In this document: positions 7,891-61,378 of the stretch, piece by piece
How positions within the stretch are numbered: position 1 is the stretch's first letter
How the letters are laid out: each line of letters begins with the position of its first letter
Virus record (IMG/VR): IMGVR_UViG_3300005529_000035
Span: 1 to 63,576 of that record
From: a virus
Direction: 5' to 3' (one strand)
DNA length: 63,576 nt
The notes under the pieces: generated by a model
Database searches by the model: none
Told to the model about the DNA's origin: nothing
What the model saw: only the letters and a program-made list of their open reading frames with translations
Made by a program: the position numbers and the translations under genes

Positions 7891-9384
7891 TCAGATCTGC
7901 ATCGGGGCGAATGATGACGCAGGGGCCGCCCAGGTGCCGTCAGCGCGCAGGAACTGGGCGGTGCTGCCAGTCGGCGTGGCGATCGCGGTCCCCTGGATTT
8001 TCGCCACCGTGGGCGCCGCGGACGTGCCGCCGAGGTCCCCGGCGACAGCTGCGCCGTTCAGGTTCGCCAGCGCTGCTGCTGCGGTGGCAGCCCCGGTGCC
8101 GCCATGCGTGGTCGTCAGGACCCCGCTGTTCTCGATGGACAGGGTGCTGCCGGACTGAGCCAGCCCAGCACCCGCCGTGACTGTCCCCGCGCCTGAGAAC
8201 TGCGTGAACGTGATGGGGTCGGTGCCGAGAGTGACGAAGCCGCTGTTGGTGCACACCCAGCCCGTGAGCGCGTTGGATGTCCCGGCCTGGGCGAACGTGA
8301 ACGCGGACTGCACCTCGTTGCCCGCGTCCATGTCGGCGGCCCGGTCCAGTATCCACGGCGTCGACACCGACCCGTGATCGGTCACGGTGAAGATGCCGTT
8401 GTTCGGCGCGTTCCCGCTGGTCTCGTCTTTCACCAGCACCCGGTCACCGTTGGAGACGCTGACACCGTCAATGGTGAGCGCGCCGTTCCCGGTTTCGGTC
8501 AGCGTGCTCGAGGTCGCGCCGTAAGTGGCCAGTGCACCCGTGGTGGCCACACGCACCGTGCCCTTGACCTGCAGGCCCGTAGCCACGGCGTCCACGTAGG
8601 ACTTGGTGGCCACGTCCAGGGCGTTGACCGGCGCCTGCGCCTGGACTTCCCCGGTGAAGGTCTTGGCTCCGCCGATGGTCTGGCTGCTGCTCAGGTCGAC
8701 GAAGTTCTGGGTGCCCGAGCCTGTGCCCCCGGCCGTGACCGGCAGCGGTGAGGGCTGCGTGGCGATGCTGGTGAGCCCCAGGCTGGCCCGCGCGGTGGCA
8801 GTGTTGGTGAGGTCGGACAGGTTGGCGGCTATCTGCGCGGCGCCAGCCTCAGCGGTTTCCGCCCGCGCGATCTCCGATGTGAGGGCCGAGGCGGCAGCCA
8901 CGTTGGCCCCGGCCAGCGTCGACCACGACCCGTTCCCCGACCCGTCCGAGGTCAGCAGGTCACCGGCTGCCGCGCCGCCGGGGATCCGCAGCGGTGGTGA
9001 GCCGTTCAGCACCAGCGTGCCCGCGAGCGCACCGCCAGCGCCCAGGCTGCCCGCTGAGGACGCGGGCTGGATGTCGGACAGGTACTGGACATCGCCGTCA
9101 GTGAACGGCAGCAGGATCGCGTATGCGGCCGGGGCGCCCGGGAACTGCGGGTTCACGAGCCACGCCCACGTGTCCGGGTTCAGGTCCGCGTTGTCAGTCG
9201 CCAGGAGGGTGGCGAAGTTCACGCCCGTGGTGAGGTCGACCACGACCGGCGTCTGGGTGACGATCAGGTTCTCCGGCGCTGCCAGCAGGATGGAGACCGG
9301 CGTGAAGGTGACCGAGCCCTGCCGGATGGGGTAGCCGTCGCCGCCGGTGTAGTTCAGGACGAGGGTCACGTAATTCAGGCTCAC
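7891..9384 (-). CDS. Tail fibre protein, paralogue of the next upstream fibre
   Basis: The open frame reaches 9798, but the protein-like sequence begins at GTG 9384 (VSLNYVTLVLNYTGGDGYPI) with GGGGGTGGG upstream, giving 497 residues. Residues 1-155 match the N-terminus of the 9405-11591 product (TDNADLNP-WAWLV, GTLVLNGSPPLRIP, GDLLTSDGSG), so a tail-attachment module has been duplicated. The middle has SQTIGGAKTF and a DVATKSYVDA segment found in many phage fibres. The end has FLRADGTWAAP followed by SSFAPMQI. It is a receptor-binding or fibre component. Confidence 0.75.
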   Translation of the reverse strand: MSLNYVTLVLNYTGGDGYPIRQGSVTFTPVSILLAAPENLIVTQTPVVVDLTTGVNFATLLATDNADLNPDTWAWLVNPQFPGAPAAYAILLPFTDGDVQYLSDIQPASSAGSLGAGGALAGTLVLNGSPPLRIPGGAAAGDLLTSDGSGNGSWSTLAGANVAAASALTSEIARAETAEAGAAQIAANLSDLTNTATARASLGLTSIATQPSPLPVTAGGTGSGTQNFVDLSSSQTIGGAKTFTGEVQAQAPVNALDVATKSYVDAVATGLQVKGTVRVATTGALATYGATSSTLTETGNGALTIDGVSVSNGDRVLVKDETSGNAPNNGIFTVTDHGSVSTPWILDRAADMDAGNEVQSAFTFAQAGTSNALTGWVCTNSGFVTLGTDPITFTQFSGAGTVTAGAGLAQSGSTLSIENSGVLTTTHGGTGAATAAAALANLNGAAVAGDLGGTSAAPTVAKIQGTAIATPTGSTAQFLRADGTWAAPASSFAPMQI

Positions 9385-12760: not shown

Positions 12761-13510
12761 ATGGAGCTTGCGCCTGTGAATGAGTCTGTCACGCCCTCGG
12801 CCACTGATGAGCGCTGGCGTCCCGTAGTCGGCTTTGAGGGCTTCTACGAGGTCAGTGAGTTCGGGCGCGTCCAGTCGCTGCCGCGCAAGACAGCTACAGG
12901 CATCCGTGGCGGCCAGATCCTCAAGCCGTGGCTCACCACCACTGGATATCTGGCCGTAACGCTATGCAAGCACAACGTGAGATACCGCCGCACTATCCAC
13001 CGGCTCGTCGGTGAGGCATTCATCGGGCCGCTGCCGCCTGGCATGCACACGCGCCATGGACAAAATGGCTCAGGTGATCCGGGCCTTGCGAACATCTGCT
13101 ACGGCACTGCGGCCGAGAACGAGGCTGACAAGGTGCGCGACGGAACCAGCAATCGTGGCGAGCGGAATGGCTGCGCGCGACTGACGCGCGCCCTCGTTGA
13201 GGAGATCCGGTCACGGTATGCGGCTGGCGAGAGCGGAGGTTTGCTCGCTCTCGAGTATGGCCTGAGTTCGTCGCATGTCGGAGAACTTGCTCAGGCGGCC
13301 TGGGGGTTTGAGCCAGTGGTCCGTGTGGCGCAGGGCCACATGCGCGGTGAGCGTCAGCCGAACGCGAAACTGACTGAGGAGATCGTCAGGGAGTGCCGCC
13401 GGCGCCGCTCTGAGGGTGCCACGTATGCCGCGCTAGCGCGGAGTTTCGGTGTGACCAAGGCCGTGATGCGCGAGGCCGTGATCGGCATCACCTGGAAGCA
13501 CGTGGCCTAG
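12761..13510 (+). CDS. HNH homing endonuclease with NUMOD4 motif
   Basis: 249 residues from the ATG at 12761. WRPVVGFEGFYEVSEFGRVQ is a NUMOD4 motif. HNH_3 elements follow (RRTIHRLVGEAFIG, MHTRHGQNGSGDPGLANI). The C-terminus holds two helix-turn-helix-like repeats, the second ending ITWKHVA, as in the HNH product ending at 46465. The gene lies opposite to the tail genes, and its stop overlaps the stop of the next minus-strand gene by four bases, the mark of a free-standing homing insertion. The target is probably in a tail gene of related phages. Confidence 0.85.
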   Translation: MELAPVNESVTPSATDERWRPVVGFEGFYEVSEFGRVQSLPRKTATGIRGGQILKPWLTTTGYLAVTLCKHNVRYRRTIHRLVGEAFIGPLPPGMHTRHGQNGSGDPGLANICYGTAAENEADKVRDGTSNRGERNGCARLTRALVEEIRSRYAAGESGGLLALEYGLSSSHVGELAQAAWGFEPVVRVAQGHMRGERQPNAKLTEEIVRECRRRRSEGATYAALARSFGVTKAVMREAVIGITWKHVA

Positions 13511-13731
13511 CTCATGAAGCCGTTGTCGATCAGGCGGTCCACCAGCAGGTTGAACTGAGCGGTCACCTGAGGGAGGGTGCTGGTGGTGTCACTGACCCCG
13601 GCCATCTGCGACAGGCCAGACAGGAAGGCGGCGTTGCTGAGTGCCATGCTGGACACGGTTGCCGCGAGGTCGTCGATGCGCTTCTCGTGGGCCTGGAGCT
13701 TCGCGTGCAGTGTGGCATTGCTGACCGCCAT
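13507..13731 (-). CDS. Small coiled-coil tail protein
   Basis: Seventy-four residues from ATG 13731 (MAVSNATLHAKLQAHEKRID). The N-terminal half is a heptad coil (LHAKLQAHEKRIDDLAATVS). It sits between two tail proteins and is probably a small structural or trimerisation component. The frame is open further upstream but without protein-like sequence. Confidence 0.55.
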   Translation of the reverse strand: MAVSNATLHAKLQAHEKRIDDLAATVSSMALSNAAFLSGLSQMAGVSDTTSTLPQVTAQFNLLVDRLIDNGFMS

Positions 13732-13742
13732 TGCTGCCCCCT

Positions 13743-15590
13743 TTATGCCAGTCTGTCCACGAACCATCTGGGGTAATAGTTCGCCCCGATCGCCGGGGCA
13801 CCTTCCACCGCGTAGGCGAACAGCACGCAGTCGGTGCCGCCGTCTACCGTGAGCGGGCCACCGGACACGAACGCCGAGTCCAGCACCGACACGGCCTGCG
13901 TACGGTCAGTGGCCGAGCCGAGCACCCGCCCAAGATCCCGGTCCGGCGTCGGCTCATCCAGGTAATAGGTCACGTAGGACGTGGACGCCTCGTTGATGAT
14001 CACCGTCTGGCCCTGGGTGTCGAGCAGGAGAACGTCCAGGAACCGGTCTGAGGAGTTCGTGTCGGTGATGCCCAGCGTGAAGTAGGCGTCGGTGTTGTCG
14101 GCGGCGATGTCCTTGCCCGGCAGCGTGAGCTCGCCGATGACCGCGATCCCGTTGACGATGTCCGTGCTCGGCGTGAACGTACGGCTCACGGACTGTGTGG
14201 ACGACGGCCCGCTGGTGTACTCGTACTGGTGCAGCGTGATCGTCAAGGTTCTCGGTGACCCCGACGACGCCCACGAGTTCGCCACCGCCACGACCGTGTA
14301 GGTGCCGGAGAACCGGGCGTTCTGGCCGCTGACCTGGCTGGTCACCGCGTACTCGCGGCCATCCGGCGGGTCGGTGACGCTCGTGGTGGACACGAACGGG
14401 GTCAGGTTCAGCGGCGAGTCCGGGCCCGGCCGGTGCGCGACCAGGGTCTTGAACGCGGTCGCCCCGGACTGCTGGAACGTCAGGTTCAGCGGCGCGTGCG
14501 ACGTGCCGACCACGCTGTGCAGCGTGTACAGCGACCCGCGCGCCGATGCCGCAGCACCCGTGGTGACGGGCTGTGCGGTCAGGTCGTCCAGGAAGACGTT
14601 CAGCCAGAACCCGGAGTAGTGCGACACCTTGATGTCGCATGCCACGACCGCGGCGAGATTGAACGAGCCGATCGACCCGGGCAGTGCTGCGGTGACCTGG
14701 TTCCAGGTAGGGGTCAGGTCCAGGCGCCCCACCGTGGACGACACGGTGGTGCCGAACGACACCGCACGCCCGGCCGAGTCCTTCAGCGTGAACGTGACCG
14801 TAGGGGTGACCGGCCCCGAGCCCCAGTAGTCCCACGCCTGCTCTGAGGAGAACCCGATCCACATCTGCAGCGACGTCAGCCCGGTCAGGTTCTTGCTCGA
14901 GAACGTGGCGTGGTAGGTGATGACCTCGCCGTTCTGGCCGTTGAAGGTGGTCGGGTCGTCGAACCCGTTCCAGTACGCCGAGTGGGAGCCGGTGATGTGA
15001 ACGGTGGACGCTGTCCAGCCGGTTCCGCTGACGGTCTCGAAGTCGGTCAGCGTCACCGGGGACGCCGGAGGCGGCGGGATCCCGCCGCCGGTCACCGGGG
15101 AATCGAACGCGAGCCGCTGCGGTGCGTCGCTTCTGCCGTAGGGCAGCGCCTGGAACGAGATGGTGACCTGGGAGACCAGGGACCGGTCGTGCCGCACCGA
15201 GTAGGACACCACGGTCGGCAGGGCCCGGAAGCAGTCGAAGACGAGCGGCAGGCCGCTGTCGCTGGTCCAGGTCAGCGTCCACGTCTGGGCGTCGATGGTC
15301 TGCAGCAGCGTTTCCCGCGCCGCGGTGAGTGTGGCCTGGTCGGCGAGGTCGTCGCCCGTGGCCGGGACGGTGATCACGATGGGCAGCGTCATCGTCCGGT
15401 TCGACGCCCGGCGCCCAAATGGGCGCTCACCATCAAGTATTAATTCGCCTACTATGTCCGTTACCGGCTGCGGCGCACTGAAGTCGTAGCCGGGGGCAAG
15501 CTGGAAGATCGCCCCGGTGCACTGCGGCAGCGTGGACGGCTGGCCGAAACCGAGCAGCTCGATGGCGGAGGCGATCAGGAGCGAGGCCAC
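13743..15590 (-). CDS. Distal tail (Dit-like) protein with extra domain
   Basis: 615 residues from GTG 15590. The N-terminal ~200 residues have the Dit-type layout of siphophage tail tips (beta-strands, RASNRTMTLPIVITV, LVFDCFRALPTVV, VTISFQALPYG). A Pro-rich linker follows (GGGIPPPPASPVTL), then a beta-sandwich ~residues 190-330 that resembles a carbohydrate-binding module (TDFETVSGTGWTAS, SAYWNGFDD). It directly follows the tape measure, the normal place for the first tail-tip protein. Confidence 0.7.
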   Translation of the reverse strand: MASLLIASAIELLGFGQPSTLPQCTGAIFQLAPGYDFSAPQPVTDIVGELILDGERPFGRRASNRTMTLPIVITVPATGDDLADQATLTAARETLLQTIDAQTWTLTWTSDSGLPLVFDCFRALPTVVSYSVRHDRSLVSQVTISFQALPYGRSDAPQRLAFDSPVTGGGIPPPPASPVTLTDFETVSGTGWTASTVHITGSHSAYWNGFDDPTTFNGQNGEVITYHATFSSKNLTGLTSLQMWIGFSSEQAWDYWGSGPVTPTVTFTLKDSAGRAVSFGTTVSSTVGRLDLTPTWNQVTAALPGSIGSFNLAAVVACDIKVSHYSGFWLNVFLDDLTAQPVTTGAAASARGSLYTLHSVVGTSHAPLNLTFQQSGATAFKTLVAHRPGPDSPLNLTPFVSTTSVTDPPDGREYAVTSQVSGQNARFSGTYTVVAVANSWASSGSPRTLTITLHQYEYTSGPSSTQSVSRTFTPSTDIVNGIAVIGELTLPGKDIAADNTDAYFTLGITDTNSSDRFLDVLLLDTQGQTVIINEASTSYVTYYLDEPTPDRDLGRVLGSATDRTQAVSVLDSAFVSGGPLTVDGGTDCVLFAYAVEGAPAIGANYYPRWFVDRLA

Positions 15591-36811: not shown

Positions 36812-37816
36812 TTATCCTCCCGCAGCGTGGATTGGCGTGGGCGTCTCTCTCTTGATGCGGGTCACGGTGGACTCGGAGACCCCTGCCTTCTTGGCCACCT
36901 CGTCAAGCGGCATGCGCGGCGTGGCCTCCAGGATGGCCTTCACCTTCGCGCGTTTGCGGGCGGTCGCGCTGACGGTCTTGCGAGGCGTCTTCTGACGGGC
37001 CTTCTGACCGTCATTCTGCGCCTGGTCCTGACGGTCGATCTGACGGCGCTCGCGGCGCACGCTGACGGCCAGCTTGTCGCCTTCGGTGACGGCCCTGGTG
37101 ACCATGTCCCTGACGGCCTGTTCCCACCCTCCGGTGACGCGTGCCCTGACGGCCTGCGTGGCGGCGCTGGTGACGGCGTCGCCGAGGCGGCCGGTGCTGA
37201 TGGCTGAGCGCAGGAGTGACGGTGCCTTGCGGCGCCACTGCCAGCGGCCGTAGTGGGCGCGGGCGAGGTCGCGGGCGAACAGCCGGGCCTCTTCCAGTTC
37301 GACCGCCACCGGGTAGGAGGTGACGTTACGCAGCACCATCCGCTTGCGCATGCCCGGCGTCCGCCACGGCGAGAGCAGCCAGCGGGCCCGCGGGATGCGC
37401 ACGGTCTCTCCGTCTCGCCGCTTCGCCAGTTTGCGCCATCGGGTCAGCTCGAGGAACACGATCCACAGCGCCGGCATGACGACGTGCAGGGCGCGGCCAA
37501 GCCAGTCATGGGCGGCAGCGCCGTGGGCGTTGACGTAGATGGTGAACGCCGCCAGCACCCAAGCCAGGGCGCGGGGCACGAGATCGGAGCGGTGGGCGTC
37601 GATGGCTTTGCGGGCTTCGACGATGAGGGCCAGGATCCCGACGTCGATGCCGAGTGGGTAGAGCACTGACCAGCCGGGCAGGCCGTGCTCGTGCGCCAGC
37701 TTGGCGATCGTCTGGAACGACACGGCGAAGCCGATGCCTGCCACGCCGAGCAGGAGCGGGTTGTCTGCGACGACAGCGCGTGCGTGCTTGCTCATGGAGG
37801 GCATCTTGACCGCCAT
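36812..37816 (-). CDS. DUF2637 (SpdB-like) membrane protein with C-terminal HTH
   Basis: 334 residues from ATG 37816. Residues ~20-120 contain four membrane helices (LLLGVAGIGFAVSFQTIAKL, LGIDVGILALIVEA, ALAWVLAAFTIYVNAHGA, HVVMPALWIVFLELTRW). This is the DUF2637/SpdB arrangement of actinomycete plasmids, where it helps intramycelial spread. The long cytosolic tail ends in a helix-turn-helix (MPLDEVAKKAGVSESTVTRI). It is next to the TraB-like ATPase, strengthening a DNA-transfer role. Confidence 0.8.
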   Translation of the reverse strand: MAVKMPSMSKHARAVVADNPLLLGVAGIGFAVSFQTIAKLAHEHGLPGWSVLYPLGIDVGILALIVEARKAIDAHRSDLVPRALAWVLAAFTIYVNAHGAAAHDWLGRALHVVMPALWIVFLELTRWRKLAKRRDGETVRIPRARWLLSPWRTPGMRKRMVLRNVTSYPVAVELEEARLFARDLARAHYGRWQWRRKAPSLLRSAISTGRLGDAVTSAATQAVRARVTGGWEQAVRDMVTRAVTEGDKLAVSVRRERRQIDRQDQAQNDGQKARQKTPRKTVSATARKRAKVKAILEATPRMPLDEVAKKAGVSESTVTRIKRETPTPIHAAGG

Positions 37817-37880
37817 CGGTGATCCTTTCCGGGATTTCCGGCTCAACTCGTGGTCAGCGTGACGTGCGGGCCAAACGGGA

Positions 37881-38333
37881 CTACCGCGTCCTGCTCAGGC
37901 GCCGCCAGGCCGCCCACAGCGGCACCAGGGCAGCGCCGAAGAACACGAGCATCAGCCACACGTGAGGGGCTGCGGCACCCGTGACAGCCAGCATGGCGCC
38001 GAGAGCGATGAGGATCGCGGTCCACGCACGCCGCGCGCCCGGGTCGCTGCCCCGCATCTTCCAGATGAACCGCAGCCGCCTGCGGGCCTGGGCGCCTGCC
38101 AGCATGACCGCCGCCCACGAGGTCATGGGCAGGCCCTCGCGGCGCAGGATGCCGCAGGCGATCAGGACGGTGCCCGGGATCGTGAGGAAAGGCAGCCACG
38201 GCCACGTGTGACCCTGGGTCAGGCCCACAAGGCCGGTGAGGACACCAGCGACGGTCAGGAGCGGTCCTGCGATGAAGGACGCCACCACGATGCCGTCTGG
38301 CAGTTCGTGGCGGGCGGGGTGGGTGGTGGTCAT
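37881..38333 (-). CDS. Four-TM membrane protein
   Basis: 150 residues with four hydrophobic helices (GIVVASFIAGPLLTVAGVLT, FLTIPGTVLIACGIL, WTAILIALGAMLAVTGAA, WLMLVFFGAALVPLWAAW) and a basic loop. It resembles accessory membrane proteins in SpdB-type spread modules. No specific family is recognised. Confidence 0.6.
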   Translation of the reverse strand: MTTTHPARHELPDGIVVASFIAGPLLTVAGVLTGLVGLTQGHTWPWLPFLTIPGTVLIACGILRREGLPMTSWAAVMLAGAQARRRLRFIWKMRGSDPGARRAWTAILIALGAMLAVTGAAAPHVWLMLVFFGAALVPLWAAWRRLSRTR

Positions 38334-38343
38334 GGGGGTCTCC

Positions 38344-39021
38344 TCAGGCGTGGGGAACGAAGGCGTGGAAGGTCAGCAGGCCGGTGGCCAGCAGGAACAC
38401 CGGGGCGGCGATCACACGCTCAGGCAGAGTTCCGGTCGTGAATGCCGCAGGCTCCGGCAGCAGGTGATAGCGGCGCTTGGAGAACGGGAAGCCCAGCATG
38501 CAGCCCGAGTCCGTGAGCATGTCAGCGGCCACATGAGCTGAGCAGCCGAGCAGCACGGCGAGCGGTATCAGTGCCAGGCCGTAGCCGCGCCATATCACCA
38601 GGGCGGAGACTCCGATGGCCACGAGGTCGGCGGCGTGGCTGCGCAGGATCTTCAGCGCTTCGAGCATCCCGGAGACGCTGAAGGTGATGATGACCGCCAG
38701 GAACGCTTCTGCTGGCCAGGAGGGTAGGAAGCGGCAAGCGATCCATGCCAGCCCGGCGGTGACAGCGATGCCGAGGCAGGAGTGCGTCGCATGCCTGTGA
38801 CCGCCGGTTGCCTTGCCGACGATCCAGGCGACTCCCCGCGAGAACAGGCCCAGCGACCGCGAGACCGAGGAGCCGCAGTGGTCGATGTCAGGCCAGAGGG
38901 CCAGCGCCCCGGTGAAGGCGGCAAGCGTGATGACGCCGCCGGGTGGCGCGTGCATGACGAAGCCGCCGTAAGCCGCCCCTATGGCAGTGCCGGCCCAGGT
39001 GTGGGTCGCTCCGAGGCACAC
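38344..39021 (-). CDS. YdjM-type metal-dependent membrane hydrolase (DUF457)
   Basis: 225 residues from GTG 39021. MCLGATHTWAGTAIGAAYGG, LWPDIDHCGSSVSR, HRHATHS and AHVAADMLTDSGCMLGFPFS give the metal-binding His/Asp set of the YdjM/DUF457 family embedded among membrane helices. The family acts at the membrane and is often SOS- or phage-linked. Its promoter region overlaps the clt-like repeats. Confidence 0.8.
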   Translation of the reverse strand: MCLGATHTWAGTAIGAAYGGFVMHAPPGGVITLAAFTGALALWPDIDHCGSSVSRSLGLFSRGVAWIVGKATGGHRHATHSCLGIAVTAGLAWIACRFLPSWPAEAFLAVIITFSVSGMLEALKILRSHAADLVAIGVSALVIWRGYGLALIPLAVLLGCSAHVAADMLTDSGCMLGFPFSKRRYHLLPEPAAFTTGTLPERVIAAPVFLLATGLLTFHAFVPHA

Positions 39022-39105
39022 CGCTCAGCCCTCCGGGTGGAGGCCCGGCGCGGCCAGTGGCGGCCAGCTGCCCGCGCCGGGCGTCTGTGGGTGGATATGA
39101 CCCGG

Positions 39106-39243
39106 TTGGACTCTCCCCTCCTGGGAGTCCACGGGCCGCTCCCCTGAGTCCAGGCGGGAGTCCAAAATGGACTCCGGGCAGTCCAATCTGGTGTCCACTC
39201 GCGCGCGCGTGCGTAGGTGCCTACGGGCGGGCGGCCGAGTCCA
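39106..39243. repeat. Cluster of GAGTCCA repeats (clt/TRS-like)
   Basis: Six exact copies of GAGTCCA/TGGACTC (39107-39113, 39125-39131, 39146-39152, 39158-39164, 39168-39174, 39237-39243) and two one-mismatch copies (39179-39185, 39191-39197) sit in 137 bp immediately after the TraB-like gene. Two form a GGAGTCCA-AAA-TGGACTCC palindrome. TraB proteins of actinomycete plasmids bind 8-bp repeats (TRS) at the clt locus. This fits that pattern, but binding is inferred. Confidence 0.6.
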
Positions 39244-39248
39244 CGGGC

Positions 39249-41258
39249 TCACGGACGGCCTGCCGAGGCGAGCAGGCGGGAGTTCGCCTCACGGATGACC
39301 TCCAGCGCCGTCCAGACATCCTCGCCGGGAGCGGCCCGGTAGCGGCCCTTGCTGACGGCAGTCACCGAACCAGCGCTGACCAGCGCAGACAGTTGTGCCT
39401 GCACCCAGGAGCGGGACATCCCCGAGTCCTTCGCAAGATCACTAGGAGTGCGGCCATCCTCAGGTGCGGTCGTGACCAGCCGGGCGAAGGCGGCCTTGCG
39501 GCGCTCCATCTCGCTGGCGAGCTCGAAGTCCGTGGGGATCCGGGCCAGCGCCGACAGGGGAACGTCTGGCGTCTCCGCGATATCGGCCTCCACCTGTGCC
39601 GCCATCTCCACGGCGCTCTGGCTGGCGGGAGACGGCGCGGCGGGGGAGGGGGCAGCCGGAACCGGTGGCGGCGCTGGCGCCTGGTCCAGGCCCGCGCACT
39701 GCGGGGCGGCGGAACGGAACGCCTGCGGAAGCCGGTGCCAGCGCATGTCGTATGCCTCCTGATGATCATTCGCGTACAGCACCAGGGGAGTCCGCGACAG
39801 GGTGCTGTGGCGCCCGGCGATCTCCCGCACCAGTTCGTGTGGCATGTGCGGGCCGCGGGCAGCCTCGGACGCGGCCTCGGAACCAAGCTGGTAGTAGAAC
39901 GAGCCCTTGACGTTGAGCCGTGACGGGTTGAGCTTCGCCCAGTCGGACAGGGCGAACTGGCCGTGACGGTCGTCGTTGACGGCGAAGCAGATCCGGTGCT
40001 CGAGGTTGCCGCGGGTCTGCTCGGTGCGGACCGACTCACTTAGGGCCCCGTGCTGGGTGAGGACGATCACGTACACCGCGACACCGGAGCCCATGGACGC
40101 GATGGCGGCGAGCAGGTTGGCGCACTGGGTGTCGCCCCGGGCCATCGACGTGACCTCGTGGGTCTCGTCGATGATGATGAACAGCGCCGGGACTTCCCTG
40201 GTGGGGCGCAGCTGCTCGCTGCCGTCGTAGGCATAGGTGGCGCGCTGCTGGACTTCGGCGAGGGCAACGGTCAGCATGAGCCGGGCCTCGTCGATGGTGG
40301 TTGCCACCCAGTCGAGCGCGGCCATCCAGGGGCGGGTGGCCCGGCCGCCCTTCATGTCGATCAGCCACGGGCGGGCGTCGGCGCAGCCGGTGATGGTGGC
40401 CAGGAACGCGGACAGTTCGTTGGACTTGCCGCCGCGGGTGCGGCCGAGGATGAACCAGTTGACCAGCAGGCAGACCTTCACCCAGTCGCCGGATTCGGTC
40501 TTGCCGATCGGGGCGGGCTCGCTGATGGACGCCGGGGCGAGTGCCTGGTCCCATTCGATGTCGTCGCGCAGCGGGTTCTCCCGCCGCAGGTGGTAGACCA
40601 CGACCGAGGGATTGTCCGGGTCGACGTGGCCGCGGATCATGCCGTGCTTCACGTAGCCGCGCAGCGCGGCCTCGATCTGCGGGATGGCGTCCAGGAACTG
40701 CTGGCCGTGCTGCTTCCCGGCGTCCAGCTGCACCCGCAGGACTTCCACGTCGCGGCGGGGCTCGACGTCGATGACGCCGGAGCCTTCGCCGTGCCATGCG
40801 GGGCAGTGGTGCTGCCACCAGGCGTTCCACGACCGGACCAGGCGCACCGAGGACGAATGCAGGCGCTTGCGCTTGTGCAGCCACCACGGGATGCCCCAGG
40901 CCAGGGCCAGGACGCCCCCGGCGATCCATACTGGCTCGCTGAGCCCGTGGTAGGCGACGGCGGTCAGCCAGCCAGCACCGGCCAGCACGGAGCCGACCGC
41001 GTAGACCTGCTCGGCCGTGCGGTCCCACTTGTGCGGGGCGAAGAACCACACGCAGGCCAGGACCGCCGCGCCCGTGAGCAGGACAGGCAGCCTCCAGTGC
41101 TCAGCGAGCACGACCGCGGCAGCCAGGGTGGCCCCGGCGGGGACGGCCAGCAGCGGAACGGTGAGGTGACGGTGACGCCGTGCCCACAGCGGCACCAGCC
41201 ACGTCAGCCGTGGCCGGCCCGGCAGGGACGGCGGGTTGGGCGGTGTGCTCCTGGGCAT
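39249..41258 (-). CDS. FtsK/TraB-type DNA translocase
   Basis: 669 residues. Four N-terminal membrane helices (~33-126) are followed by a motor domain with Walker A ILGRTRGGKSN (~270-280), DMKGG near residue 301, Walker B ALFIIIDETHE (~358-368) and TQHG/TRGNLEHRICF. A Pro/Ala linker leads to a C-terminal winged helix (TPSDLAKDSGMSRSWVQAQL). This is the plan of FtsK-family TraB proteins, which pump double-stranded plasmid DNA between mycelia. The repeats right after the gene are candidate gamma-domain targets. Confidence 0.85.
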   Translation of the reverse strand: MPRSTPPNPPSLPGRPRLTWLVPLWARRHRHLTVPLLAVPAGATLAAAVVLAEHWRLPVLLTGAAVLACVWFFAPHKWDRTAEQVYAVGSVLAGAGWLTAVAYHGLSEPVWIAGGVLALAWGIPWWLHKRKRLHSSSVRLVRSWNAWWQHHCPAWHGEGSGVIDVEPRRDVEVLRVQLDAGKQHGQQFLDAIPQIEAALRGYVKHGMIRGHVDPDNPSVVVYHLRRENPLRDDIEWDQALAPASISEPAPIGKTESGDWVKVCLLVNWFILGRTRGGKSNELSAFLATITGCADARPWLIDMKGGRATRPWMAALDWVATTIDEARLMLTVALAEVQQRATYAYDGSEQLRPTREVPALFIIIDETHEVTSMARGDTQCANLLAAIASMGSGVAVYVIVLTQHGALSESVRTEQTRGNLEHRICFAVNDDRHGQFALSDWAKLNPSRLNVKGSFYYQLGSEAASEAARGPHMPHELVREIAGRHSTLSRTPLVLYANDHQEAYDMRWHRLPQAFRSAAPQCAGLDQAPAPPPVPAAPSPAAPSPASQSAVEMAAQVEADIAETPDVPLSALARIPTDFELASEMERRKAAFARLVTTAPEDGRTPSDLAKDSGMSRSWVQAQLSALVSAGSVTAVSKGRYRAAPGEDVWTALEVIREANSRLLASAGRP

Positions 41259-52071: not shown

Positions 52072-52308
52072 ATGACCAGCACCGAGGAGAGACTGGGTAG
52101 CGAGAACCGCTACGAGGGCCGCTGGAGCCTGACATCGATAGTCGGCGAGGTGCCCGTGCCAGGTAGCGAGGTAATGGTGCCCGGCGGCAAGCCGATGCCC
52201 TTGCTGGCCCCGCTCTACAGCACGGTCGATATCACCCGATGCCGTTCCTGCGGCTCTATGGTTGCGGTGGGGTCAGAAGATTTGCACGAGAGCTTGCACC
52301 GACCCTGA
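52072..52308 (+). CDS. Small zinc-ribbon protein
   Basis: Seventy-eight residues. Beta-rich N-terminus (YEGRWSLTSIVGEVPVPGSE), then TRCRSCGSMVAVGSEDLHES as a half zinc ribbon with a His. Leaderless. Function unknown. Confidence 0.55.
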   Translation: MTSTEERLGSENRYEGRWSLTSIVGEVPVPGSEVMVPGGKPMPLLAPLYSTVDITRCRSCGSMVAVGSEDLHESLHRP

Positions 52309-52446
52309 CCCGATAGGCGTAATGGTCTGCCGCAAAACCGGCTCATAGGATTTCAGCCCCGTAGAGTCACGAACCACTTGCACTCCGCAACCTTCCGGCG
52401 TACTTTCCAAAGCGGACGTTTGCTCGCGGCAAAGCCAGCGTCAGGG
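52303..52446 (+). ncRNA. Structured leader before 52461 gene
   Basis: CCCTGAC (52303-52309) pairs with GTCAGGG (52440-52446) around a ~130-base interior that contains GCCG/CGGC (52329-52342) and TTTGC/GCAAA hairpins. The 3' arm abuts a GGGGAGG ribosome site. It may control translation of the 52461 gene. Supported only by pairing. Confidence 0.35.
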
Positions 52447-52460
52447 GAGGGAATGCGGCA

Positions 52461-52703
52461 ATGAATGACTCACTGCCCGGCTTACATGACTCGGTCGACG
52501 ACCTGTGCGACCTGCTCGAAGCCCACGGGGCCCGCTACTCGATCACACCAATATGCGACGGTGAACACGGCTACCGGGTGACAGCTGAACCCAGGCCACC
52601 TGACCCGAGGTTCGTGCCCATCGAGGCGGAATCGGCAAGGGAGATGCGCGTGCTCCTGGACGCACTCACGGAGCAGCGCCCCCGGTTACAGGAGCCGCAG
52701 TGA
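52461..52703 (+). CDS. Small acidic protein
   Basis: Eighty residues (MNDSLPGLHDSVDDLCDLLE), with ARYSITPICDGEHGYRVTAE and VPIEAESAREMRVLLDALTE. Two Cys. A compact alpha-beta protein. Its GTGA overlap with the next gene shows an operon. Unrecognised. Confidence 0.55.
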   Translation: MNDSLPGLHDSVDDLCDLLEAHGARYSITPICDGEHGYRVTAEPRPPDPRFVPIEAESAREMRVLLDALTEQRPRLQEPQ

Positions 52704-52879
52704 GCACGGGCGAGGTCATCATCGTGTCCTGCTTCGGCGCCATGACCGTGTCGGTGCTGATGCTGCGCTGGCAGAACCGCCGCGGCAGGCACGCCTGGGA
52801 CGACCGCAGGGGCCAGGAAGACTTCCCCTGGGACGAGGATCCTGCCATGTGGCCGAGGGTCAGGGCCGGGCCGCATTAG
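52700..52879 (+). CDS. Small single-TM protein
   Basis: Fifty-nine residues (VSTGEVIIVSCFGAMTVSVL...) with one membrane helix followed by a polar tail (RRGRHAWDDRRGQEDFPWDE). Ends at TAG 52879, just before the structured region. Confidence 0.5.
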   Translation: MSTGEVIIVSCFGAMTVSVLMLRWQNRRGRHAWDDRRGQEDFPWDEDPAMWPRVRAGPH

Positions 52880-52883
52880 AGCC

Positions 52884-53696
52884 GGGACGCGGTGCCGTGG
52901 CTTGGCCTCTGGCCTCTTCCCGGCTTCGGTGCCGCGTCCTGATGACGGGTGCGGGAAGTGCCGGGCACACCATTGCGGGCACTTCCCGCGCCCCCCAAGC
53001 GCGTGGCGGCAGGGTGACTGCCCTCCCTGTGGGCCCCCCAAGGTCACCCGCCGCCACGTCAGGTGTCCCGGTGGCGGGAGTACGCACCCATGCCAACGCA
53101 ACCGTTGAGCGGGTCGACTGGGAGAACCCGTCACCGGGACCATAGCGCCGCAGCGGCGCGAGGGGAACCGGACCTGGCCGGTCCTGCGTCACGCTCAGGG
53201 GCACACCGGCCACGTACCCCTCGCGCCGCTGCGGTTTTGCCTTACCGGTTTGGCACGCCCCGGCCTGCGGCTTTACCCCCGCCAGCAGGACCGAGAAGTT
53301 TGGGAACCGGTGCCTGGGCTGGGCGATCCGCCGAAAATAGGTAACGTCAAGGGCTTTAGAAAGCAAACGCCAGGGCATGGGCAGGCATAGTGTGTCTCGG
53401 GGCATGGCCCCCGCCCTGGGCTCTTTCCGGCTTGAGCCCGGGGCGGGGCAAGACGCCGTGGCGGCGGGCGGCTGACGGACCGCACTGGGACGCTTCTCTG
53501 GCAGGGAGGCTCTGTGACGGGACGGCCCTGCCCGCCGCCGCGGCCCCTTCCTATCTTCGGTGCGATCTTCCTGCGAGCCTGTCTCAATTCTGGAATGCTT
53601 GCACTGCGTCACCCTCCGCATACGCGGAGTTAGTCTCCCTGCCACGCACCAGCCGCCGCCCGCCGGATTAAGGGCGGCGCTAGGTGTGGCTGGTGT
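52884..53696 (+). ncRNA. Candidate large structured RNA (~810 nt)
   Basis: No convincing gene lies here, but at least seven long stems do: 52885-52897/52927-52939 (13 bp), 52947-52962/52978-52993 (16), 53002-53018/53043-53058 (16, one bulge), 53065-53073/53132-53140 (9), 53148-53165/53217-53234 (18, perfect), 53407-53423/53434-53449 (16), 53455-53469/53530-53544 (15). Smaller hairpins nest inside (53170-53184, 53264-53289, 53492-53510, 53614-53629, 53647-53695). The non-Watson-Crick positions in the long stems are G-U in plus-strand RNA (T93-G31, G94-T30, T50-G90, T17-G40, T59-G540 type) and would be A-C on the minus strand. Its size and nesting recall the ornate large RNAs known from phages (GOLLD, ROOL). 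Confidence 0.65.
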
Positions 53697-53718
53697 TGAC
53701 TGCGGGGCGGGGGAGACC

Positions 53719-53991
53719 ATGCGGCGATGGTTAGCGCGGCTGCGTACTGGCTGCCAGTGCGATGGCCTTGATGCCCGCGTCGAGCAGCGCGTCAGCGAAG
53801 CACTGGCCGTGGTGAGCGAGCTCCGCGAGCACGTCAAGCGCCTCACCGAGATCCGCGAGCAGGTCGACGCCAACACGGCGACCCTGGACAGCATGCGGCG
53901 CGGCGAGGCCATCATTGACCAGGCCATCAGGGAAAGCCGTGAGTCCCGGCCGTTCCCGCTGCGGGCCGTGCGGAAGGACGAAGCGGTCTAG
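53719..53991 (+). CDS. Small coiled-coil protein after large RNA
   Basis: Ninety residues from ATG 53719 with GGGGGAG upstream. MRRWLARLRTGCQCDGLDAR is followed by a long coil (SEALAVVSELREHVKRLTEI, REQVDANTATLDSMRRGEAI). It may associate with the structured RNA, but that is only positional. It ends on the stop of the minus-strand repressor (four-base overlap). Confidence 0.55.
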   Translation: MRRWLARLRTGCQCDGLDARVEQRVSEALAVVSELREHVKRLTEIREQVDANTATLDSMRRGEAIIDQAIRESRESRPFPLRAVRKDEAV

Positions 53992-54413
53992 CTCGCGTCC
54001 CGCTCGGCGCGCTCAGCCTCACGCTCAAGGGCGAGCCGTTCGCGGCCCTTTTCCAGCAGCCAGCGCTTCAGGGCCGGCGTCAAAAGCGGATCGGGATCCT
54101 CGGCCAGCCGCCGGAAGCCATCCGGGTCGCCGGGCTTCAGCAGGTCTTCCGGCCGCCACGCAGGCGCGGGCGGCGGCCCGTAACCGGCCGCCTCTACCAG
54201 TTCACCAGACCACTCATCCACCTCGGGGCAGTCCGCGCTGAGGCGCACGGCGAGTTGCCTGATGTTCCGGTAAGCGGGCGCGTGCTGGCCGGTTTCCCAG
54301 CGGCTGACCTGGGAGCGGCCGACGCCTGCCATGTGTGCGAGGTCTTCCTGGGACAGGCGTGCTCTGGCGCGGATCTCCCGGAGCAGCCAGCCGAGGCGCT
54401 GTGTGTCGGGCAC
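53988..54413 (-). CDS. XRE-family repressor (CI-like)
   Basis: 141 residues from GTG 54413, leaderless behind TAGCGT (54426-54421). HTH at ~11-53 (LLREIRARARLSQEDLAHMA, GVGRSQVSRWETG). The C-terminal part is helical and charged. Divergent to the 54589 gene across a repeat-rich region: the classical place of a lysogeny repressor. Confidence 0.75.
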   Translation of the reverse strand: MPDTQRLGWLLREIRARARLSQEDLAHMAGVGRSQVSRWETGQHAPAYRNIRQLAVRLSADCPEVDEWSGELVEAAGYGPPPAPAWRPEDLLKPGDPDGFRRLAEDPDPLLTPALKRWLLEKGRERLALEREAERAERDAS

Positions 54414-54420
54414 GTCACGG

Positions 54421-54426
54421 ACGCTA
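54421..54426 (-). promoter_or_regulatory. -10 TAGCGT of repressor gene
   Basis: Minus-strand TAGCGT seven bases before GTG 54413. Confidence 0.45.
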
Positions 54427-54588
54427 GCACGAGACAGCACAGAAGCGCACGGAGCCGGCATATGTGCGCCATGCGGCATGTCGTGCGGAAGAGCACGCAA
54501 CGGACAGCACAAGAGGTGGCCAGGAAGTAACCTTACTACGGACGTAAGTACGCTTGCGTCGTGCGGTGCTGTGCGGTAGTGTGCGGTC
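54427..54588. promoter_or_regulatory. Divergent operator with three 10-bp-spaced GTGCGGT repeats
   Basis: GTGCGGT occurs at 54561, 54571 and 54581, exactly one helical turn apart, directly before the 54589 start. A CTTAC/GTAAG dyad (54532-54548) and further GTGCGG copies (near 54483) lie on the repressor side. It is the likely switch region. Confidence 0.6.
54577..54582 (+). promoter_or_regulatory. -10 TAGTGT of leaderless Cro-like gene
   Basis: TAGTGT six bases before ATG 54589, embedded in the GTGCGGT repeats. Confidence 0.5.
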
Positions 54589-54840
54589 ATGATCGTTCAA
54601 GTGGGCACAGTGAGGCTTCGCGTCAGCGAGTTCCTTGCACGTGCGGTCATGGACGGCGCGCGCACAGACACGGCCATCGCTGAGCGAATCGGCGTCACCC
54701 GGCCAACCGTCACCCGCGCGCTAGATGGCGAGCCGATCAGCGGCGGTTTCGTAGCCGCTGTCCTGCTCGCCTTTCCCGACCGCGAGTTCGGGGATCTCTT
54801 TGAGGCGGTCAGGTCCAGCGCAGAAAGTTCGGCGGCATGA
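54589..54840 (+). CDS. Cro-like HTH regulator
   Basis: Eighty-three residues. HTH GARTDTAIAERIGVTRPTVT, RALDGEPISGGFVAAVLLAF. Leaderless. Divergent from the repressor; it would act as Cro or an early activator. Stop overlaps the next start. Confidence 0.75.
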   Translation: MIVQVGTVRLRVSEFLARAVMDGARTDTAIAERIGVTRPTVTRALDGEPISGGFVAAVLLAFPDREFGDLFEAVRSSAESSAA

Positions 54841-60463: not shown

Positions 60464-60690
60464 GCCAGCAGCCACGCAGGCGGCGCGTCACCATGCTCCG
60501 CGATGACCTGCCCCACCAGATCCGCCTGACCTTCGTCAACGGCAGCGGCAGCATCAGCGTCTCCTGCTGCTGCCGCAAGAACCCTGGCGGGTCATTCGCC
60601 TCCCTGGAGACCCGCACCAGATGGGAAGCGCCGGAAGCCATGACCGTCTGGCGCGCTCACGTTGACAGAGCGGAGGCCAGAGGTGCCTAG
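60460..60690 (+). CDS. Small Cys-containing protein
   Basis: Seventy-six residues. SISVSCCCRKNPGGSF and a helical, basic start. Unrecognised. Confidence 0.5.
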   Translation: MSQQPRRRRVTMLRDDLPHQIRLTFVNGSGSISVSCCCRKNPGGSFASLETRTRWEAPEAMTVWRAHVDRAEARGA

Positions 60691-61378
60691 CCGCCGTTTC
60701 ATCTCCACCCGCACTGCCGCGAGCGCCAACGGTGCCCCGGAAAGTCCTGGCTACGTCTACCGCGGCAAGGACCGGGAGCCAGCAGACCCGGTGGCGGCCT
60801 CGGACCGGTCCCGCCGTGACGCGGCCAAGCGCGCTGCCGGGCTGGTGCTGCGTGCCGCCCGTGAAGCTGCGGGGCTGAGCCAGCCTCAGGCGGCTCAGGC
60901 AGCCGGGTGCAGCGCGGGCTACATCTCGGCCGTCGAGAACGGCCACGACTGGCCCAGCAAGCGTCTCATCGCCGCTCTCGCTGCCGCTTACGGCGTGAGC
61001 CCCCAAGACCTGGCCGCTGCTGCCGAGTCCGCCCCCGTGGCTCTCAGCACGCCAGATGAGGCACGACCTGTCCCCCGGGCAGGACGTGCCACCCGCCCCG
61101 TCGCAGCGGTCCCGGACCCTTCCGCTGCGACGGGGCCCATGACTCCGGGGACCGCCGTGGAGGCTGCGGGGAACAGTCCTCCGCGAGCGGTCCCTGGTAC
61201 CAGCGCCGGGGCCGGTGACGGCGAGGGGGCGTCACCGGCCCTGCGGGGCGAGGCGTGGCGCAAGGCCGCGCAAGCCGAGTTGTCGTCTCAGCACGCCGCT
61301 CAGAGGCGGGGAAGGGTACGCAGGGCACCGAAGCCCATCACGGGGATCGTGAAGCCGCCACCGGACGGTGCGCGATGA
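60683..61378 (+). CDS. XRE-family regulator with long Ala/Pro tail
   Basis: 231 residues from GTG 60683. HTH at ~50-100 (AGLVLRAAREAAGLSQPQAA, GCSAGYISAVENGHDWPSKR). The C-terminal half is Pro/Ala/Gly-rich and basic (VRRAPKPITGIVKPPPDGAR). It could control the early operon or DNA-replication genes. Confidence 0.75.
   Translation: MPSRRFISTRTAASANGAPESPGYVYRGKDREPADPVAASDRSRRDAAKRAAGLVLRAAREAAGLSQPQAAQAAGCSAGYISAVENGHDWPSKRLIAALAAAYGVSPQDLAAAAESAPVALSTPDEARPVPRAGRATRPVAAVPDPSAATGPMTPGTAVEAAGNSPPRAVPGTSAGAGDGEGASPALRGEAWRKAAQAELSSQHAAQRRGRVRRAPKPITGIVKPPPDGAR

Follow-up and report, generated by a model that had tools for sequence, protein, structure and literature searches.

Genomic setting and layout of the element

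The window (the whole analysed stretch of virus DNA, 63,576 bases long and identical with the record) has a GC content of 68%. Its structural genes are actinophage-like, with a portal protein 38% identical to that of Streptomyces phage Crosby, and its source is a soil actinobacterial phage. Its other proteins include an FtsK/SpoIIIE-like ATPase, a DUF2637 protein and a replication-initiation-like protein, and the set of window proteins that was scanned contained no integrase; the phage may therefore be maintained in a plasmid-like manner. The DUF2637 and FtsK/SpoIIIE-like genes adjoin the packaging genes at 36812-41258. An FtsK-like gene was also found in two relatives (L124 and L116), suggesting that plasmid-like functions occur in this phage group. 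Close to the record's left end, at 1081-1520, strong hairpins form a strand-symmetric run located mostly between ORFs.

The element studied here occupies a gap of about 820 bases without a gene (52880-53718), between a 59-aa ORF and an ORF whose ATG lies at 53719, and it sits between plus-strand ORFs all reading in one direction. The features of the locus are as follows:

52700..52879 (+): upstream small ORF of 59 aa, bounding the element; hexamer coding score +5
52883..52941 (+): hairpin 1; stem 52883-52897/52927-52941, 15 bp with three G-U pairs, enclosing a nested hairpin
52947..52993 (+): hairpin 2; stem 52947-52962/52978-52993, 16 bp with one G-U
53000..53060 (+): hairpin 3; ungapped stem 53002-53013/53047-53058, 12 bp with one A-C
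53065..53140 (+): hairpin 4; stem 53065-53078/53127-53140, 14 bp with one G-U, 48-nt nested loop
53148..53234 (+): hairpin 5; stem 53148-53165/53217-53234, perfect over 18 bp, 51-nt nested loop, followed by TTTT
53244..53311 (+): hairpin 6, imperfect, seen only in the RNA fold
53312..53408 (+): junction rich in A and lower in GC (53% in 53320-53379), its predicted structure weak
53409..53448 (+): hairpin 7; stem 53409-53423/53434-53448, 15 bp with one G-U
53450..53549 (+): hairpin 8; stem 53450-53471/53528-53549, 22 positions, 56-nt nested loop
53614..53629 (+): small hairpin, then TTAGTCTCC; a weakly similar block lies in a relative (L162 8811-8878, minus strand)
53647..53695 (+): terminal nested hairpin
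53719..53991 (+): downstream small ORF of 90 aa, its ATG after GGGGGAGACC; bounds the element
53988..54590 (-): helix-turn-helix (HTH) repressor-like gene, convergent with the element
54589..54840 (+): gene for a small HTH DNA-binding protein, divergent from the repressor-like gene

The original prediction of some 810 bases without a credible gene held: a hexamer model whose training set was related phages gave a negative coding score to every ORF lying mostly inside the gap, -69 in the case of a 355-aa ORF on the minus strand. This score is not a sharp test, since several small neighbouring ORFs were also slightly negative.

Fold strength and hairpin clustering

A strand-neutral stem search, in which G-T and A-C were penalised alike, found seven stems of 12-22 bp in the gap, including the perfect 18-bp stem of hairpin 5, which belongs to a 21-nt inverted repeat; the predicted minimum of seven stems was thus confirmed. 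In the RNA fold, hairpin 3 has 10 + 8 bp with a bulged A. The imperfections of the hairpin 8 stem are two G-U pairs, one A-C and one other mismatch.

RNAfold gave -497.9 kcal/mol for the plus strand (MFE z -8.4) and -457.2 kcal/mol for the minus strand (MFE z -6.1), with 20 shuffles in each case. The structure signal was strongest in the 5' half of the element, where 52881-53280 on the plus strand was the top 400-nt window across the 63.6 kb (z -5.0 vs. -3.1 on the minus strand). At the 160-nt scale other places in the genome outranked the element, so the signal comes from a cluster rather than from one extreme stem. In agreement with a cluster, 6 ungapped hairpins were counted in 840 nt of the element against a mean of about 0.8, a number reached by only 2 of about 2,790 other windows in related phages, and when strong-hairpin clusters were ranked over 1.42 Mb of related phage DNA, the element came first. 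In 0.4 Mb sampled from a Pseudonocardia chromosome, clusters of four or more strong hairpins were absent. Such clusters were used in place of an array score for weak hairpins, which failed to tell phage from host DNA and was dropped. Overall, the element is a real and exceptional noncoding hairpin cluster with a plus-strand bias.

Hairpin arrays in related phages and strand bias of stem mismatches

Hairpin arrays also occur elsewhere in the clade. A 263-aa ORF of one relative (L159:15976-16767, minus strand) contains about ten consecutive long hairpins that encode a proline/alanine/glycine-rich linker, and the fold z of L159 15902-16763 is -9.1. An array in a second relative (L149:17163-17942) likewise lies inside a low-complexity linker-coding ORF. 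In the window itself, the HTH gene at 60662-61378 holds four long hairpins in its linker-coding part (61060-61241); downstream of the linker, this ORF and those of L159 and L149 share a similar basic C-terminal segment. The fourth array, L111:2016-2337, fills the 322 nt that separate an HTH gene from a RusA-like gene, a gap consisting nearly entirely of short-loop hairpins. All four resemble the element in their consecutive long GC-rich stems, which exceed shuffled expectation where tested. However, their loops are mostly short (3-31 nt) and three of them fall within ORFs for proline/alanine/glycine-rich linkers, whereas the element has longer nested loops than the coding arrays and no open frame. 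Because the relatives' arrays occur inside linker-coding sequence, a row of hairpins does not by its presence alone identify a noncoding RNA in these phages.

The mismatches in the long stems had been predicted to read as G-U on the plus strand, as a mark of selection for a transcribed plus-strand RNA. The direction of this asymmetry stood, with 8 G-U against 2 A-C in the strand-neutral counts, but its strength did not, as these counts alone give a one-sided p of 0.055 and are suggestive of plus-strand selection rather than decisive. The stem-by-stem tally also changed: the first stem carries three G-U pairs instead of two, and the stems 53002-53013/53047-53058 and 53450-53471/53528-53549 carry one A-C each. 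The background was symmetric (G-U:A-C 623:603). When five hairpin arrays were pooled, with every array taken on the strand presumed to be transcribed, the count was 23:9 (p 0.010); the arrays had been picked for their hairpins and not for G-U content, and the pooled test was made after the first counts were known. Set against the symmetric background, the pooled ratio modestly favours constraint at the RNA level.

Comparison with known RNA families

The original prediction had pointed to GOLLD, ROOL, OLE and HEARO as RNAs of comparable size and complexity and proposed an Rfam search for membership. Two scans were run, the whole window at the gathering cut-off and 52300-54300 at E ≤ 10; none of the four covariance models matched in either, even at E ≤ 10 (GOLLD is RF01998 and ROOL is RF03087). 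Neither scan gave a match to the group I or group II intron models. ARAGORN found no tRNA genes in the window.

GOLLD is often longer than 800 nt, and both GOLLD and ROOL are often, though not necessarily, found near tRNA islands (PMC12286853). The element resembles them in being of similar size, phage-borne, extensively structured and of unknown function (PMC12286853). It differs from them as a row of mostly adjacent hairpins without an Rfam match, without a tRNA in the window and without known relatives. As a separate observation, a related phage (L144, G372:66000-85999) carries 35 tRNA genes in 20 kb, with hairpins between some of them.

Search for relatives and a possible link to the repressor

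Blastn searches of phages and plasmids returned nothing for the region, nor did Blastn with the junction at E ≤ 10. A DNA search of about 1,140 actinobacterial genomes (347 + 399 + 395) at 1e-6, run without a positive control, was also empty. Terminase baits led to 80 related IMG/VR loci, and about 20 of those contigs were retrieved in large part; 50 IMG/VR terminase relatives gave only short matches at chance level. With the neighbouring ORFs 52461, 53719 and 53988 as baits, no relatives were found. Covariance models R1, R2 and R3 (R3 being the 3' block) were each built from a single sequence. R1 had no match. The best non-self match of R2 was L162 (E 0.001), but R2 matched other paired hairpins too, and R3 placed L162 at only E 0.1, level with or below unrelated matches. 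Local alignment of the element with L162 gave p 0.0125-0.02, uncorrected for the several comparisons made, a suggestive likeness only; with this uncorrected p and the R3 result, homology with L162 is unproven. The element is an orphan, with no convincing relative in any collection searched.

Two relatives nevertheless have a structured block convergent to a repressor-like gene. In L162 (G388) it lies at 8533-9352 on the minus strand (z -4.7 vs. -2.8 on the other strand), and in L134 (G362) at 13440-14200 on the plus strand (z -6.5 vs. -0.7); the folded L134 interval takes in a 99-aa ORF (13521-13820), its between-ORF part being 13821-14148. In both, as in the window, the repressor-like gene is paired with a divergent second HTH gene. 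Among 11 other repressor loci, 3 had a convergent-strand z ≤ -4.3 compared with 12.5% of 56 random segments, so that the association of structured blocks with repressors was not significant in this sample. It is a doubtful proposition that the blocks of the window, L162 and L134 are diverged members of a new class of large structured RNA encoded in one clade of soil actinophages, with side-by-side long hairpins convergent to an immunity repressor and with the sequence turned over while the architecture was kept.

Interpretation of the element

The interpretation of the element as a candidate giant structured RNA is partly supported: it is large, noncoding, strongly structured and plus-biased, but the Rfam scans gave no support for membership in GOLLD, ROOL, OLE or HEARO. 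The best reading, to which we assign an even chance, is a putative structured RNA, an orphan multi-hairpin RNA of the early/immunity transcript. The strand-biased blocks of L162 and L134 count in its favour, with the caveat of the ORF inside the folded L134 interval. The stretch 52880-53718 would be transcribed on the plus strand as a piece of an early/immunity transcript running rightward, in a phage that may persist as a plasmid. About eight long hairpins would form side by side, several of them enclosing nested loops some 45-60 nt long, and with the less GC-rich junction mid-way. The working form would be RNA rather than DNA, presumably a stable structured RNA either released from, or embedded in, a polycistronic transcript beside the repressor gene. 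The hairpin row could protect and isolate a block of RNA running toward the convergent repressor gene and antisense to it, and this block might be a structured RNA with a regulatory or scaffolding role.

Alternatively, the hairpins might be cis-acting parts of a transcript between early genes, serving processing, stability, attenuation or termination and keeping read-through out of the downstream ORF and the convergent repressor, with no separate RNA fold. The position between plus-strand ORFs fits this, as do the hairpin rows of relatives both between genes (L111:2016-2337) and within them, and hairpin 5 with its TTTT was flagged as terminator-like. The nested loops of 45-60 nt are, however, unlike those of intrinsic terminators, a T run follows only one stem, and the 4 terminator-like sites in the region do not exceed the shuffled expectation (2.6); we regard this explanation as rather improbable. 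The plus-strand preference of the fold speaks against another possibility, a DNA-level element (a replication origin of a plasmid-like prophage or a recombination site) working through cruciforms or single-strand hairpins. Inverted repeats are plentiful, and the replication-initiation-like, FtsK/SpoIIIE-like and DUF2637 proteins, with no integrase among the proteins scanned, would suit such an element, but the region lacks iterons and the replication-initiation-like gene is 8 kb off. No parABS was found beside the element, and a scan of part of the window's proteins showed no ParA/ParB.

Prophages of the cluster A mycobacteriophages Alma, LadyBird and RedRock replicate from noncoding-RNA origins (PMC7157519), a precedent for an origin at this locus; those origins are likewise noncoding, a few hundred nt long and borne by phages with plasmid-like genes (PMC7157519). 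Yet the RNA origin published for Alma and the corresponding gap of RedRock reached a fold z of only -2.7 and had no long-stem arrays, which weakens the RNA-origin reading; the element, with its long-stem row in a window that encodes a replication-initiation-like protein, is unlike these two. A DNA-level role is judged quite unlikely. Template switching that perfects palindromes in unconstrained GC-rich DNA might also have left functionless arrays in spacers and disordered linkers, and the recurrence of arrays of unrelated sequence in relatives, at intergenic positions as well as in coding linkers of low complexity, agrees with such a mutational by-product. This origin predicts equal numbers of G-U and A-C, against the 23:9 in the pooled arrays, and compact phage genomes seldom retain 0.8 kb without use; we consider it likewise quite unlikely. 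The orphan multi-hairpin RNA stays the preferred reading.

Large structured phage RNAs are few and their function is unknown, and the element may be a new kind of them. If the arrays were mutational in origin, they would call for caution in RNA discovery in GC-rich phages. If the structured RNA reading is true, the element would represent a further class, from actinophages, located beside a repressor and built unlike GOLLD and ROOL, and would offer a test case for a role of such RNAs in the lysis-lysogeny decision.
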